From contig DASZRK010000061.1 of assembly GCA_035549195.1 (NCBI GenBank), positions 1-32,393 on the forward strand: a stretch of 32,393 bases of DNA, read 5' to 3'. The notes under the pieces are model-generated. The model was not told the origin of the DNA. It was given only the letters and a program-made list of their open reading frames with translations, and ran no database searches. The position numbers were made by a program, and so were the translations under genes. Source of the DNA: a bacterium (GTDB lineage Bacteria > Oederibacteriota > Muellerivitia > Muellerivitales > Muellerivitaceae). Below are positions 2,157 to 26,553 of this stretch, one piece after another. Each line of letters starts with the position of its first letter. Position 1 is the stretch's first letter.

Positions 2157-2834
2157 TTAGGGAGCCTTTTTGAGGTCGAACTCGATCTCGCCGTCCTTGA
2201 GCCCGATCTGACGGGCGGCCCGGGCCGCGTAATCGGGTTCGTGGGTGACCATCAGGATGGTGGCCCCCAGTTCCCTGTTGATGCGTTCGAAGATGGAGAT
2301 GACCTTCTCACCGCTCACCGAGTCCAGGTTGCCGGTCGGCTCGTCGGCGAAGAGGTATTTGGGCTTCATCACCAGCGCCCGGGCGATGGCCACGCGTTGG
2401 CGCTCGCCGCCCGATATCTGGCCCGAGAGCTTCTTGCGGACGTGGCCGATCTCGAATTCTTCCATCAATTGGACCCCATAGGCCCGGAGCTCCTCGTGGC
2501 GGCCGGTCTTGCGGGCGGGGAAGACCACGTTCTCCTCGCAGGTGAGCTCGGGAAGCAGGTAATGGAACTGGAAGACGAAGCCCATGTTCTGGTTCCGGAA
2601 GGCATAAAGTTCCTTGCGGGTGAGGCCTGCGACCTGGCGGCCATCCAAGACCAGTGTTCCGGAAGTGAGCGGGTCCAGGGTACTCAAAGAGTAGAGCAAG
2701 GTGCTCTTGCCCGACCCGGAACGGCCCGTGATGGCAACGTATTCGCCGTCGTGGATCTCCAGGTCCAGGCCTTTCAAGACCACGGTGGGGGGCTGGCCGA
2801 AGGATTTGACCATCTTTTTCCCGGAAAGGCCCAT
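2157..2834 (-). CDS. ABC transporter ATPase, LolD/MacB-type
   Basis: 225 residues, typical of the LolD/FtsE/MacB-ATPase group. Walker A is GRSGSGKST (37-45), the Q-loop is at Gln89, the signature is SGGERQR (141-147), Walker B is YLFADEP (160-166) followed by TGNLD, and the switch histidine is in VTHEP. It should power the FtsX-like permease encoded just upstream. Such complexes do not pump through the membrane classically; they drive extraction of lipoproteins or export with a periplasmic adaptor (family knowledge). The start ATG follows AGGAGGG by 5 bases. That Shine-Dalgarno is the last part of repeat copy 1 and can pair inside it, so translation may be controlled by that structure. Last gene of the three-gene operon. 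Confidence 0.93.
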   Translation of the reverse strand: MGLSGKKMVKSFGQPPTVVLKGLDLEIHDGEYVAITGRSGSGKSTLLYSLSTLDPLTSGTLVLDGRQVAGLTRKELYAFRNQNMGFVFQFHYLLPELTCEENVVFPARKTGRHEELRAYGVQLMEEFEIGHVRKKLSGQISGGERQRVAIARALVMKPKYLFADEPTGNLDSVSGEKVISIFERINRELGATILMVTHEPDYAARAARQIGLKDGEIEFDLKKAP

Positions 2835-2934
2835 GCTAGCCCTCCTGCAATTCCGCGCTGGAAGCAGCGCGGAGAACGGAGGCTAGCATCGCACCGATTT
2901 CAATAGGACGTGGTCCAAAGGATGATCGGCGCAT
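2835..2934 (-). repeat. Structured intergenic repeat, copy 1 (RBS of the ATPase gene)
   Basis: 100-bp unit lying head-to-tail with copy 2. On the coding (minus) strand it can form stem I (GCGCCGAT with ATCGGTGC), an outer stem II (GCTAGCCTCC with GGAGGGCTAGC, one bulged G) and an inner stem III (CCGCGCTG, loop CTTC, CAGCGCGG). The 3' arm of stem II is the Shine-Dalgarno of the ATPase gene, and the unit ends exactly at its ATG. Confidence 0.85.
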
Positions 2935-3033
2935 GTAGCCCTCCATCGATTCCGCGCTGGGAACAGCGCGGAGAACGGAGGCTAGCATCGCACCGATTTC
3001 AATAGGACGTGGTCCAAAGGATGATCGGCGCAT
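2836..3033 (-). other. Small open frame running through both repeat copies
   Basis: ATG at 3033, one base after the permease TGA and preceded by the permease's own GAGGGGGG, opens a frame of 65 codons ending TAG at 2836. It reads each repeat as 33 codons beginning MRRSSFGPRPIEIG. A similar 32-codon frame (beginning MCRYPVSRPPHEIG, ending PMEG) lies in the third copy at 4290-4385. No known domain. It may be a by-product of a conserved RNA structure, so I do not call it a gene, but its length and end are kept in all copies. Confidence 0.3.
2935..3033 (-). repeat. Structured intergenic repeat, copy 2
   Basis: 99-bp unit nearly identical to copy 1, starting one base after the permease stop codon. 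Differences cluster in the loop of stem III (TTCC) and in the segment between stem III and the GGAGGG. It ends GGAGGGCTAC directly before the ATG that opens copy 1, so it would provide a ribosome-binding site for the small frame in copy 1 rather than for a full gene. Confidence 0.85.
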
Positions 3034-3034
3034 G

Positions 3035-4285
3035 TCAGCCCCCCTCAGCCCGCAGGATATCAATGGGATGCATGCGGCTGGCGGAGCGGGCCGGCAGATA
3101 ACCCGCCACCAAGCCTGACAGGACGGCCAAGAAGAACCCGGTCAGGTAGAAGTAATAGTGCCAGGCGATGAGCATGTGGTTGATCTTGGACATGCCCATC
3201 CCGCTGGAAAAGGTGATGGTTTGGATATAGAGACAGACCAGGGTGCCGACGATGCAACCCAGGATGCCCCCGATGAAGCCTAGGATGAGCCCTTGGGAGA
3301 GGAAAAGGGTGATGATGTCCCCGGCTTCGTAGCCCATGGACCGCAGGATGGCGATCTCCCCTCTCTTTTGCAGGATCATCATGTTGAGGATGTTGTAGAT
3401 GCCGAAGGCGGCGATCATGAGCACCACGAAGCTCAGGATGTACCGGATCATGTCCTGCATCTTGAAGACCTGGAAGAAATTGGCGTTGGCCTCGTCCCAG
3501 CTTTGGACCTTCTCCCGGCTGATGGCCGCCCATTGGTCGGCCACCTTCCGGGCCTGGGTGATATCCCTCAATTTCACGATGATCTGGGCGATCTCCCCGG
3601 GGGTCTGGTTGGCCTGTTGGACGTAATGGATCGGCGCATAGGCGGTCACGTCGTCGATCTGGACCATTCCGGTGTTGAAGAAGCCCGCCACCTTGGCCGG
3701 CACCACTGACCCGCCGATCTGGGTGATGTTGAGGGTGTCGTCCAAATGCAGGCCTAGTTTTTGGGCCAATGATTCTCCGATGACGACCTGGAAGCCCCCC
3801 TTGTCCAGGGACAGGAAGTTGCCCGAGCTCATGTCGTCCTGGATATCGGTGGCTTGGACCTGTTTCTGGGCTTCCACCCCGATGAGGATGATGGACCGGG
3901 TGAGCTTCCCCCGGTGGACCATGACTTGGGTCGTGATCTGGGGCGCGTAAGCCATCACCTGGGGGTCCGCGTCCAGCCGGTCGAACCAGCCCTGGGGGTA
4001 CTCGATGTGGGGCGGCTCGTTGTGGAGGACCGGAGGGACGATCCAATGGACCAGGGCATCGGGGAAGAAGTCCGGGTCGAGGGAATGCTCCTCGATGGTG
4101 GGCTCCTCGGCCTTGATACTGATGTGGGCGGTGGTGTTGATGAGCCGTTGGATGAGGTATTCACGGAAGCCCAGCATCATGCCTGAGAGGATGAGGAAGG
4201 CGGCGGTCCCGAAGGTGATCCCCAGGAGCGCCAGGAGGGTCTGACGGGGACGGGCCAGCAATTGCTTGATGGCTAGGTAGAGCAT
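3035..4285 (-). CDS. FtsX-like ABC transporter permease (LolC/LolE/MacB type)
   Basis: 416 residues. One membrane helix near 14-38 (LLALLGITFGTAAFLILSGM), then a large extracytoplasmic domain (about 45-280) of MacB_PCD type, then three helices (about 282-305, 330-360, 382-402). The C-terminal cytoplasmic end PARSASRMHPIDILRAEGG is the FtsX/MacB signature. IAILRSMGYEAGDI after the second helix is the coupling segment that contacts the ATPase. Two copies would form the channel-less mechanotransducing dimer. The start ATG has GGAGGG 5 bases upstream, supplied by repeat copy 3. Its last codons give GAGGGGGGCTGACATG, mimicking the end of the repeat. Substrate unknown; lipoprotein, lipid or antimicrobial compounds are all possible. 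Confidence 0.9.
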   Translation of the reverse strand: MLYLAIKQLLARPRQTLLALLGITFGTAAFLILSGMMLGFREYLIQRLINTTAHISIKAEEPTIEEHSLDPDFFPDALVHWIVPPVLHNEPPHIEYPQGWFDRLDADPQVMAYAPQITTQVMVHRGKLTRSIILIGVEAQKQVQATDIQDDMSSGNFLSLDKGGFQVVIGESLAQKLGLHLDDTLNITQIGGSVVPAKVAGFFNTGMVQIDDVTAYAPIHYVQQANQTPGEIAQIIVKLRDITQARKVADQWAAISREKVQSWDEANANFFQVFKMQDMIRYILSFVVLMIAAFGIYNILNMMILQKRGEIAILRSMGYEAGDIITLFLSQGLILGFIGGILGCIVGTLVCLYIQTITFSSGMGMSKINHMLIAWHYYFYLTGFFLAVLSGLVAGYLPARSASRMHPIDILRAEGG

Positions 4286-4385
4286 GTCAGCCCTCCATCG
4301 GATCCTCGCTGGTGACAGCGAGGAGCAAGGGGGCTGGCCTAGTGCCGATCTCGTGGGGAGGTCTCGAAACGGGATATCGGCACAT
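4286..4385 (-). repeat. Structured intergenic repeat, copy 3 (RBS of the permease gene)
   Basis: 100-bp element between the adaptor stop and the permease ATG. Primary sequence has diverged from copies 1-2 but the pairing is kept: stem I GTGCCGAT with ATCGGCAC, stem III CCTCGCTG, loop TCAC, CAGCGAGG, and an outer stem of CAGCCC with GGGCTG next to GGAGGG. Against copies 1-2, stem III position 3 changes G-C to T-A and stem I position 2 changes C-G to T-A, both compensated. Confidence 0.75.
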
Positions 4386-4387
4386 GG

Positions 4388-5176
4388 CTATTTACCGGGC
4401 AGGAGCAGGATGTCGTCCGCTTGCACACTGTGATCGGTCACCTCGGCCCATTGGCCGTCGGTGGCCCCCAGCTTCACCGGCACCTTTTTGGGGATGCCGC
4501 CCTTGAGGAGGGTCACGGTGCCGTGGTCGACCGCCACCAAGGGCACCTGGAGCACGTTCTCCTTGGAGGCCACTTGGATGGCCACGTCGCAGGTCATGCC
4601 CACCAGGACGCCGTCCGGCAGGCCGGGGGCCTCGATGTTCACATAGAACTCGCCGTCCTTAGGGTAGATGGCGGAGACCGTCCCGTCGATCTTTTGACCC
4701 CGCAGGCTCTCGAAGCTCAGAAAGGCCTTCTGGCCGCGATGGACCGGGATGGCGCCCGATTGTTCCAAGGTGACGACGATATAGGGATTTTTAAGGTCGG
4801 TGAGGGTCAGGACCGGGACCTGGGGGAACACGCTTTCACCTTCCTTATAGGGAAGGGAGGTGACCACCCCGGCAAAGGGTGCCCGGACCGTGTGGTGGTC
4901 GGCCAGGGCGATGAGGGGTTGGCCCTTTCCGACCGGGGCGCCTTCGTCCACAAAGAGCCGGGACAGGGTATCCGAAACCCCGAGCTTCAGCTGATAGGTA
5001 TGGCGGGCGGTGACCGTGCCGATCCCATAGACCGATTCCACCATGTTCCCGATCTTGGGGTGGACCCTTTGGGACCAGGCTTTCCATAGGTGGAGGCCTG
5101 CGGAACATCCGGCGATGGTCGCCAAGGCCAGGCCCAGCCAGAGTTTGTGTTTTTTGATCCAGTCGACAGGGTTCAT
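4388..5176 (-). CDS. Periplasmic adaptor (HlyD/MacA-like membrane fusion protein)
   Basis: 262 residues from the ATG at 5176; a GTG at 5185 would add three. A positively charged N-terminus (KKHK) precedes a hydrophobic segment LWLGLALATIAGC that works as a membrane anchor. IAGC also fits a lipobox, so it may be a lipoprotein. Then comes the biotinyl-lipoyl-like split domain typical of adaptors: VDEGAPVGKGQPLIALAD with APFAGVVTSLPYKEGESV, and beta-barrel and membrane-proximal parts (VGMTCDVAIQV, VPLVAVD). The coiled-coil hairpin normally between the two lipoyl halves is nearly absent (only HHTVRAPF links them). It therefore should not reach a TolC-like outer-membrane channel by the usual hairpin (inference). 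First gene of the ABC operon, 102 bases before the permease. Confidence 0.85.
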   Translation of the reverse strand: MNPVDWIKKHKLWLGLALATIAGCSAGLHLWKAWSQRVHPKIGNMVESVYGIGTVTARHTYQLKLGVSDTLSRLFVDEGAPVGKGQPLIALADHHTVRAPFAGVVTSLPYKEGESVFPQVPVLTLTDLKNPYIVVTLEQSGAIPVHRGQKAFLSFESLRGQKIDGTVSAIYPKDGEFYVNIEAPGLPDGVLVGMTCDVAIQVASKENVLQVPLVAVDHGTVTLLKGGIPKKVPVKLGATDGQWAEVTDHSVQADDILLLPGK

Positions 5177-5220
5177 GGGTGCCACTCTAGGTTCGGGGAT
5201 GGGGTGAAGGAATGACCTAC

Positions 5221-25498: not shown

Positions 25499-25540
25499 CC
25501 TCCTCCCCACAAAGGGGCCAGGCCTACATTTTACACTTTA
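25499..25540. repeat. Left inverted repeat of the REPtron
   Basis: Runs from CCTCCTCCCC to ACACTTTA; perfectly complementary over 42 bases to 26502-26543. Hairpin CCCC (25505-25508), ACAAA, GGGG (25514-25517), with CTAC at 25524-25527. Confidence 0.9.
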
Positions 25541-25564: not shown

Positions 25565-26518
25565 GTGGCCATGCCCCGCCCCCGACGTATCCATTATGAA
25601 GGCGCCGTTTATCATGTGACCTCCCGCGGCAACGAGCGGCGAAGGATCTTTTTGGACGACAAGGACCGTTGGGTTTTCCTCCGCCTTTTGGAGGAGGTGA
25701 TCCGGGAGGAAGGGGTCCTCTGTCATGCCTGGGTCCTGATGGACAACCACTATCACCTCCTGCTGGAGACGCCGGGGTCCAACCTTTCCCGGGCCATGTG
25801 GCACCTCAATGGTCTCTATACCCAGCGGTTCAATAAACGTCATGAACGGGTCGGGCATCTCTTCCAGGGGCGCTTCAAGGCGATCGTGGTCGAGAAGGAA
25901 ACCTACCTCCAGGAACTCTGCCGCTATGTGGTCCTGAACCCGGTGCGGGCCCGTATGGTGAAGGCCCCGGGCGATTGGAAGTGGAGCAGTTACCGGGCAA
26001 CGGCGGGCTTGGACCGAAAGGAAAATTGGCTGGAAATCGATTGGATCCTGTCCCGGTTCGGCCGCGGGCGGGAACAGGCCCAAAGGGCCTATCGAAAGTT
26101 CGTGGCGGAGGGGGTCGGTCAAAAGGTGTCCCCGTGGGAGGAACTGCGTTCGAGGGTCTATTTGGGCAGCGAAGTTTTTTTGGACCATGTCCAAGACAGG
26201 GGAAAGGAACAACGGGGCCCGGATATCCCGAAGTACCAAAGGTCGGTGGTGCGCCAGTCCCCCCAAAAGGTGTTGGCGAAGGTGGGCGCGGAATTTGGAT
26301 TGGACCCGGCCGGGATCCTTCGCCGGGGTTCCCGCAAGAGCGAAGGGCGGGCGGCGGCGATCTATCTGCTGCGGCAAGAGTCGGGGTTGAGTTTGCGCGA
26401 GATCGGGATTCAAATGGGGGTCGGTTTCTCGGCGGTGGGGAACCAATGGGCCAGGGTCAAGCGGCGGATGGAACAGGACCCCGGCTTCGCCCGCCGGGTG
26501 CTAAAGTGTAAAATGTAG
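25565..26518 (+). CDS. REP-associated tyrosine transposase (Y1_Tnp/IS200-like, RAYT)
   Basis: 317 residues. Start GTG at 25565, since AGGAGGA lies 10 bases upstream; ATG at 25571 (MPRPRRIHYEGAVYHVTSRGN) is the usual family start but far from it. HUH endonuclease: MDNHYHLLLE with His62 and His64, catalytic Tyr114 in KETYLQELCRYVVLNPVRA. RAYTs cut single strands at REP hairpins. The C-terminal part (about 240-305, EGRAAAIYLLRQESGLSLREIGIQMG...SAVGNQWARVKRR) is a helix-turn-helix of the DnaA C-terminal type. The stop codon TAG is part of the right repeat's GTAG. Intact reading frame; probably still functional. Confidence 0.92.
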   Translation: MAMPRPRRIHYEGAVYHVTSRGNERRRIFLDDKDRWVFLRLLEEVIREEGVLCHAWVLMDNHYHLLLETPGSNLSRAMWHLNGLYTQRFNKRHERVGHLFQGRFKAIVVEKETYLQELCRYVVLNPVRARMVKAPGDWKWSSYRATAGLDRKENWLEIDWILSRFGRGREQAQRAYRKFVAEGVGQKVSPWEELRSRVYLGSEVFLDHVQDRGKEQRGPDIPKYQRSVVRQSPQKVLAKVGAEFGLDPAGILRRGSRKSEGRAAAIYLLRQESGLSLREIGIQMGVGFSAVGNQWARVKRRMEQDPGFARRVLKCKM

Positions 26519-26543
26519 GCCTGGCCCCTTTGTGGGGAGGAGG
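26502..26543. repeat. Right inverted repeat of the REPtron; carries queE's RBS
   Basis: Inverse of the left end. GTAG at 26515-26518 overlaps the transposase stop codon. Hairpin CCCC (26525-26528), TTTGT, GGGG (26534-26537). The final AGGAGG (26538-26543) is the only good Shine-Dalgarno before queE. Confidence 0.9.
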
Positions 26544-26553
26544 GATGGTGGCG

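Follow-up and report, generated by a model that had tools for sequence, protein, structure and literature searches.

We propose that the repeats found between the genes of a bacterial ABC transporter operon belong to a dispersed two-hairpin element, non-autonomous and probably mobile, from a single family of the candidate phylum FCPU426, which sits at start codons, rebuilds a Shine-Dalgarno (SD) sequence and an ATG at its right end and brings along a leader frame. We assign a probability of about 0.72 to this interpretation. As to the nature of the element, the best reading is a REPIN/MITE-like mobile repeat that acts as a start-codon-targeting, translation-coupling mini-cistron. The operon lies in what we call the window, i.e. 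the whole analysed stretch of 32,393 nucleotides. G numbers denote genomes of the GTDB family of the window, unless stated otherwise (G019 belongs to the phylum but to a different family).

On the minus strand of the window, a HlyD adaptor gene is followed by genes for a MacB_PCD/FtsX permease and an ABC ATPase (Table 1). An earlier reading, made from the sequence alone, had placed three elements of ~100 bp in the two junctions of this operon, and they are indeed present there. The adaptor-permease junction consists of one two-hairpin element of ~99 nt and the permease-ATPase junction of two tandem copies. The members of the tandem pair are 95% identical, and the permease copy is 65% identical to the others. 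Each copy opens with CATG, which is the original start of the gene. All of them fold much more stably than dinucleotide shuffles, with MFE of -51.1, -49.5 and -46.6 kcal/mol and z-scores of -5.35, -5.39 and -4.94 (0 of 200 shuffles as good). Hairpin II possesses a long inner GC stem, and the 3' arm of its outer stem holds GGAGGG, the SD of the next gene, just as the sequence-only reading had described it. The spacing of five bases between GGAGGG and ATG, claimed for every copy, applies to two of them; the middle copy has four (CTAC). In the first tandem copy the stop position is occupied by TAC, so the leader frame stays open over the copy junction. The original SD of the ATPase gene, GAGGGGGG, is homologous to GAGGGAGG ahead of the empty-site ATPase start in G004. 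The CATG of the original start, the leader ORFs and the dispersal in related genomes had all escaped the earlier reading.

Table 1. Genes, element copies and initiation signals of the ABC operon in the window.
Feature	Position	Strand	Remarks
HlyD/RND-type periplasmic adaptor gene	4388..5185	-	upstream in operon
Element copy at permease start codon	4286..4386	-	left CATG through the base preceding the permease ATG; R2 75.6 bits
Hairpin I of permease copy	4342..4383	-	GTGCCGAT...ATCGGCAC; fold and covariation
Hairpin II of permease copy	4288..4336	-	SD within outer stem; inner stem CCTCGCTG/CAGCGAGG; fold and covariation
SD of permease, borne by element	4291..4296	-	GGAGGG; sequence
Leader ORF ahead of permease	4287..4385	-	32 aa (MCRYPVSRPPHEIGTRPAPLLLAVTSEDPMEG); from displaced start codon to TGA 1 base before permease ATG
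MacB_PCD/FtsX permease gene (LolCE-like)	3035..4285	-	ATG 4285-4283
Original SD of ATPase gene	3039..3046	-	GAGGGGGG; inside permease 3' end, now preceding leader ORF
Tandem pair at ATPase start, first (upstream) copy	2936..3034	-	
GGAGGG of first tandem copy	2939..2944	-	4 bases ahead of its ATG 2934-2932; sequence
Leader ORF across both tandem copies	2836..3033	-	65 aa; TAG 1 base before ATPase ATG
Tandem pair, second copy	2835..2935	-	ends before ATPase ATG; R2 89.4 bits
SD of ATPase, borne by second tandem copy	2840..2845	-	GGAGGG; sequence
ABC ATPase gene (LolD/MacB-type)	2157..2834	-	ATG 2834-2832

Insertion of the element at start codons is well supported by comparison of orthologous sequences. 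Four orthologous ABC operons, whose permeases are 84, 74, 60 and 60% identical to that of the window, are without the element at both junctions. The empty junctions of G004 read GGTAAATAACC-ATG-TTCTAC and GAGGGAGGCTGATC-ATG-GGC, while the filled junctions of the window read GGTAAATAGCC-ATG-[element-ATG]-CTCTAC and GAGGGGGGCTGAC-ATG-[element-ATG]x2-GGC. The insert thus sits exactly behind the start codon and terminates in a new ATG. A second locus is dnaE, filled in G001, G003, G004 and G006 and empty in G000, G002, G005 and G007. In the filled sites the element lies between the ATG of a leaderless-looking start and the second codon of the protein, and the empty starts (L208, L209, L211, L213) consist of TATAAT, 6 nt and ATG; judged from this layout, dnaE appears to be a leaderless gene in four family members. 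The dnaE copies are mutually similar, and the patchy pattern could include an old insertion followed by precise losses. Further, nuoJ is filled in G002 and G007 and empty in G006 (a member of the same genus), G000 and G004, and nuoK is filled in G002 only. Neighbouring genes of nuo operons overlap by ATGA, and the inserts have ATGA on both sides, except for GTGA on the left at nuoK. In the nuoJ and nuoK copies the first base is A in place of the usual T or C, and the opposite stem base is changed to T; the resulting A-U stands at pair 5-44 and its A completes the upstream stop codon.

Many copies, mainly of the 78-nt type, reside in intergenic palindromes rather than at start codons. In G002 and G007, such copies are nested in larger palindromes, and when the stretch that begins behind the left NNTG and includes the right ATG is cut out, the joined flanks match the other palindrome arm without a gap. 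The left NNTG and the right CATG of intergenic copies have only TG in common. This favours a right CATG borne by the element over target duplication, although at CATG targets the outcome would be indistinguishable from a duplication of 3-4 bp. The 78-nt copies in G002 and G007 (e.g. L035, L055, L063) occupy the same spot inside palindromes of ACCACGAAGTACACGAAG / ACCACCAAGGTCACCAAG / CCACAGATTCATGGGATG type, as if the element preferred, or belonged to, the apex of host palindromes.

At the level of sequence, the filled and empty sites show insertion precisely 3' of NTG, which is very often the start codon of an operon gene or of a gene with a leaderless promoter upstream. The right end is seen to rebuild an SD and ATG, which leaves the predicted gene product unchanged. 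Tandem copies, for example the pair in the window, are shown by the same comparison to arise at the new CATG.

The distribution of the element was followed with two covariance models, R1 built from the three window copies and R2 built from 13 long copies; E-values of such home-made models are rough. R1 gave strong matches in genomes of the same family. R2 detected the element in 8 of 8 family genomes, with 4-43 detections each (counts that include some antisense rows of the same place), and, with E<=1e-3 as limit, in 0 of 37 genomes from elsewhere in the phylum. The window's own genome harbors few copies beyond the operon. Altogether, 123 dispersed copies were read across genomes. In the R2 alignment, 88.0% of cells are paired, compared with 79.3% in shuffles and 31-47% in slid registers, and two-sided changes occur in 17 of 27 pairs as against 7.9 in shuffles. 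The compensated changes of stems I and III, noticed earlier among the three copies, are confirmed, and the covariance search of relatives extends the covariation well beyond them. Of the two roles suggested for the element by the sequence-only reading, the mobile ribosome-binding-site cassette receives strong support from the empty sites, the polymorphism of dnaE, nuoJ and nuoK and the 123 dispersed copies.

Scanning ~85,000 GTDB species genomes for the inter-hairpin core pattern yielded 39 stretches, 37 of them from FCPU426 MAGs, an assignment that rests on record titles and with some of the 37 titled otherwise. The two remaining matches outside the lineage are probably due to chance, and viral contigs do not contain the core. 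Centralia_MAG_561 carries FCPU426-type elements (L169, L171, L172, L195, L203) under the title 'Proteobacteria bacterium', which is probably a mislabel. A weak two-hairpin match is located beside tRNA-like sequence in G019 (L018 1501-1586). It contains a terminator-like hairpin within hairpin II and is possibly a distant relative, possibly a product of chance.

The general plan of the element is NNTG, hairpin I (TGCCGAT..ATCGGTA), a C(T)ATR linker, hairpin II (CCGACCTCC..GGAGGTCGG) and CATG. CATG-(YR)CCGA is found at both ends, and many of the 78-nt copies adopt one quasi-palindromic fold; as in a REPIN, two related palindromes in inverse orientation make up one unit. Subfamilies in G001 and G005 (e.g. 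L043, L044, L106) have another stem I (GTCCCGC/GCGGGAC, ATGCCAAT/ATTGGCAT) with the overall plan unchanged, which means that the stem sequence turns over and the structure stays. Apart from CATG/NNTG, the end motifs TGCG, CTCG, GACA and CGTA are found in minor subfamilies. The linker triplet tends to be complementary to the end motifs; over 57 distinct combinations, permutation gave p values of 4e-4 and 1e-4, calculated without phylogenetic control. Two-hairpin copies with TGCG ends adjoin a tRNA-like 3' end in three genera (L007 1501-1608, corresponding to G000:C15:77083-77190, L069 and L117) and are conserved. About 5 kb from them, G000 and G002 contain another conserved pair, with CTCG ends, and the linkers of both kinds of copies match their own end motif.

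For the analysis of leader frames, we regarded a copy as a gene-start copy when its right-end ATG opens at least 60 codons, which is the case for 43 copies. This criterion is lenient, as 38-49% of random ATG/CATG taken from these flanks qualify as well (CATG 49%), and the count of 43 is therefore not used alone as a proof of targeting. Against this leniency stand the copies with left NATG, of which 31 of 43 pass the test, and the downstream proteins: of ten scanned, nine have Pfam domains, mostly beginning near the N-terminus. After clustering of gene-start copies at 75% identity, 34 were left. The leader stop falls at -25..+4 of the new ATG in 22 of these 34, versus 14 of 68 when the two remaining frames are counted (Fisher p 2e-5), and in 10 of 34 it forms an exact ATGA overlap. 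Copies away from genes have a stop at -25..+4 in 3 of 28 cases and an ATGA in none. In about one third of gene-start copies the leader stop is not near the new ATG. Statistically, then, gene-start copies are shown to keep the frame of the displaced start open up to the new start. The leaders in the window end 1 nt before the ATG, and thus have the arrangement of short-uORF coupling, where the upstream frame closes at the downstream start or runs into it. An SD-like motif precedes the right ATG in 37 of 43 copies and the left NTG in 25 of 43; a TANNNT box is located just upstream in 7 of 43. In isolated folds, the SD is mostly but incompletely paired: its unpaired probability averages 0.34 in gene-start copies and is 0.29 and 0.22 at the two window starts. 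The idea that the structure hides the ribosome-binding site is thus correct as far as the SD is mostly paired, but the pairing is partial and, in the copies of the window, the AUG is mostly unpaired.

We suggest the following course of events. Ribosomes loading at the old SD and ATG would translate the short leader; leader translation would open hairpin II, and handover to the new ATG would proceed by termination-reinitiation. The insertion would thereby be nearly silent, and we infer that the leader ORF would make the downstream gene translationally coupled. Such a handover would explain why insertions in essential operons are tolerated. A single-strand, hairpin-recognizing (HUH-like) enzyme acting in trans might be responsible for movement of the element. 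In its most specific form, the proposal is that of a mobile family specialized on start codons, which would recognize (C)ATG, replace the initiation region with a hairpin-embedded SD and ATG, carry a translatable leader flanked on either side by ATGA overlaps, and spread through essential operons (dnaE, nuoJ, nuoK, purL-like, ABC) with little harm, while imposing coupling on them. We consider this full version to have an even chance of being true.

A plainer account, a plausible one at somewhat under even odds, is that of a selfish REPIN/MITE-like repeat, for which start codons are simply tolerated CATG sites. The purine-rich arm and ATG would then be there by chance, and the leader would only keep the operon alive. 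This agrees with the many intergenic copies nested in other palindromes, with the unrelated target genes and with the tandem copies, and survivorship alone could yield copies that are in frame and compatible with coupling. Less easily reconciled with it are the compensated hairpin pairs in gene-start copies, such as pair 5-44 at nuoJ and nuoK, and the open leader frame, which is specific to gene-start copies.

A cis-regulatory RNA of a regulon, either of riboswitch or of protein-binding type and lost in some lineages, would account for a conserved structure with covariation, for the SD in a stem and for copies at the same genes across genera, like those at dnaE. We nevertheless find it improbable. 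The stems of the element are conserved but its loops vary freely, and Rfam gives no gathering-level match in the window, the best sub-threshold matches being irrelevant. The clear downstream genes encode DnaE, NuoJ, NuoK, a PurL-type protein, HIT, PhoH, AMP-binding, response regulator and nucleotidyltransferase proteins; they are unrelated in function and share no common pathway. Intergenic copies also speak against a regulon, and precise empty sites within one genus had already weakened the idea. Its narrower form, a conserved RNA of the ABC operon that sets the ratio of permease to ATPase, was the other role suggested by the sequence-only reading. It is rejected on account of the empty orthologous junctions in four relatives and the unrelated downstream genes.

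Still less probable is a family of genes for small proteins (~30 aa) that have inserted between the genes of operons. Open frames with a start and ATGA stop on both sides are what such genes would look like, but the reading frame of the second half of the element differs from copy to copy, with all three frames represented. Peptide conservation does not go beyond what the stems impose, and the frame is mostly closed away from genes. It is therefore translatability and not peptide sequence that is kept, and a conserved small protein is rejected. Finally, a duplication confined to this operon, the outcome that the sequence-only reading had foreseen should relatives lack the element at the homologous junctions and covariation be confined to the three copies, has a negligible probability: the near-identity of the tandem copies and the few other copies in the same genome would fit, and the relatives do lack it there, yet covariation reaches further, and the homologous elements in all eight family genomes and the divergent permease copy refute it as a full account and leave it valid for the tandem pair only.

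The start-codon mini-cistron, our preferred reading, can be compared with several known systems. REPINs and REP/BIME sequences with their RAYT (TnpAREP) are short and dispersed, with two inverse related hairpins, terminal tetranucleotides, compensatory stem changes and tandem clusters (PMC3116915, PMC8266576). The element shares the paired inverse hairpins, the end tetranucleotides, the compensated stems and the tandem copies; it differs in ending with CATG instead of GTAG, in having no adjoining RAYT, in its location on start codons and in supplying an SD and ATG. CGTC-tagged REPs, as far as the accessible part of their description goes, are palindromic, end in a tetranucleotide tag and have no known transposase of their own (PMC3733652). 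The element shares these traits, whereas the tag of those REPs is CGTC, they are single palindromes of 20-40 bp, and start-codon insertion is not reported in that part of the source. In possible analogy to miniatures derived from IS200/IS605, the element inserts 3' of a short target and has the same motif at its right end. Complementarity of the linker triplet to the end motif, uncorrected for phylogeny, recalls the pairing of guide and cleavage site in that group (principle: PMC8266576). Unlike for such miniatures, no autonomous partner, cognate transposase or full-length parent was found at the Y1 transposase loci inspected. The element is short, non-autonomous and dispersed, with empty sites in relatives, as is typical of MITEs.

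At 23 Y1 loci examined, there was no convincing element alongside, R2 matches being weak (E 0.2-0.6), and no Y1/RAYT genes were detected in G001 and G006, where the element was detected 9 and 32 times. Since it has no GTAG/CGTC tag, only weak matches beside Y1 and two host genomes without a detected Y1 gene, we describe the element as working like a REPIN or MITE and not as a member of the REP-RAYT family. The window itself contains a REP-associated tyrosine transposase (25565-26518, plus strand; NF047646 above cut-off). The gene is bounded by near-perfect inverted repeats of ~40 bp (about 25499-25540 and 26503-26545) containing GTAGGCCTGGCCCCTTTGTGGGG, and comparable ends occur in its relatives from G002, G003 and G005. 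As mobilizer of the element this RAYT is rejected, because it has its own GTAG-containing inverted ends and Y1 is absent from two element-bearing genomes.

Rickettsia palindromic elements (RPEs) and ORF-carrying MITEs are small, palindromic and mobile, and are tolerated in or at genes because they are translatable (PMC10969869, PMC2229807). The element resembles them in size, palindromic structure and translatability at genes. RPEs, however, are in-frame fusions inside genes with a conserved peptide, whereas the element forms a separate leader cistron at the start codon, restores the start and has no single conserved frame. Termination-reinitiation is established at ATGA overlaps generally, according to the part of the source available (PMC6728339), and short-uORF coupling is exemplified, in the portion accessible, by iraD (PMC5574718). 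In both, as in the element, a short upstream frame stops at the following start codon or overlaps it. In the cases covered there, this layout belongs permanently to the gene; the element is a dispersed repeat that installs it. No description of a comparable start-codon-inserting repeat was found in the open literature searched.

Small palindromic mobile repeats were known already, mainly as intergenic passengers or in-frame inserts. The present element is set apart from them by insertion at the start codon, where it reconstructs the initiation site and forms a leader cistron. One insertion can turn a leaderless-looking start, as that of dnaE in four relatives, into an SD start behind a leader ORF. 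The nested empty and filled loci (dnaE, nuoJ, nuoK, ABC) make the effect on expression before and after insertion directly testable. An element that lands on start codons would represent a simple way for selfish DNA to inhabit compact operons, and it would be a natural source of new leader ORFs and of translational coupling.
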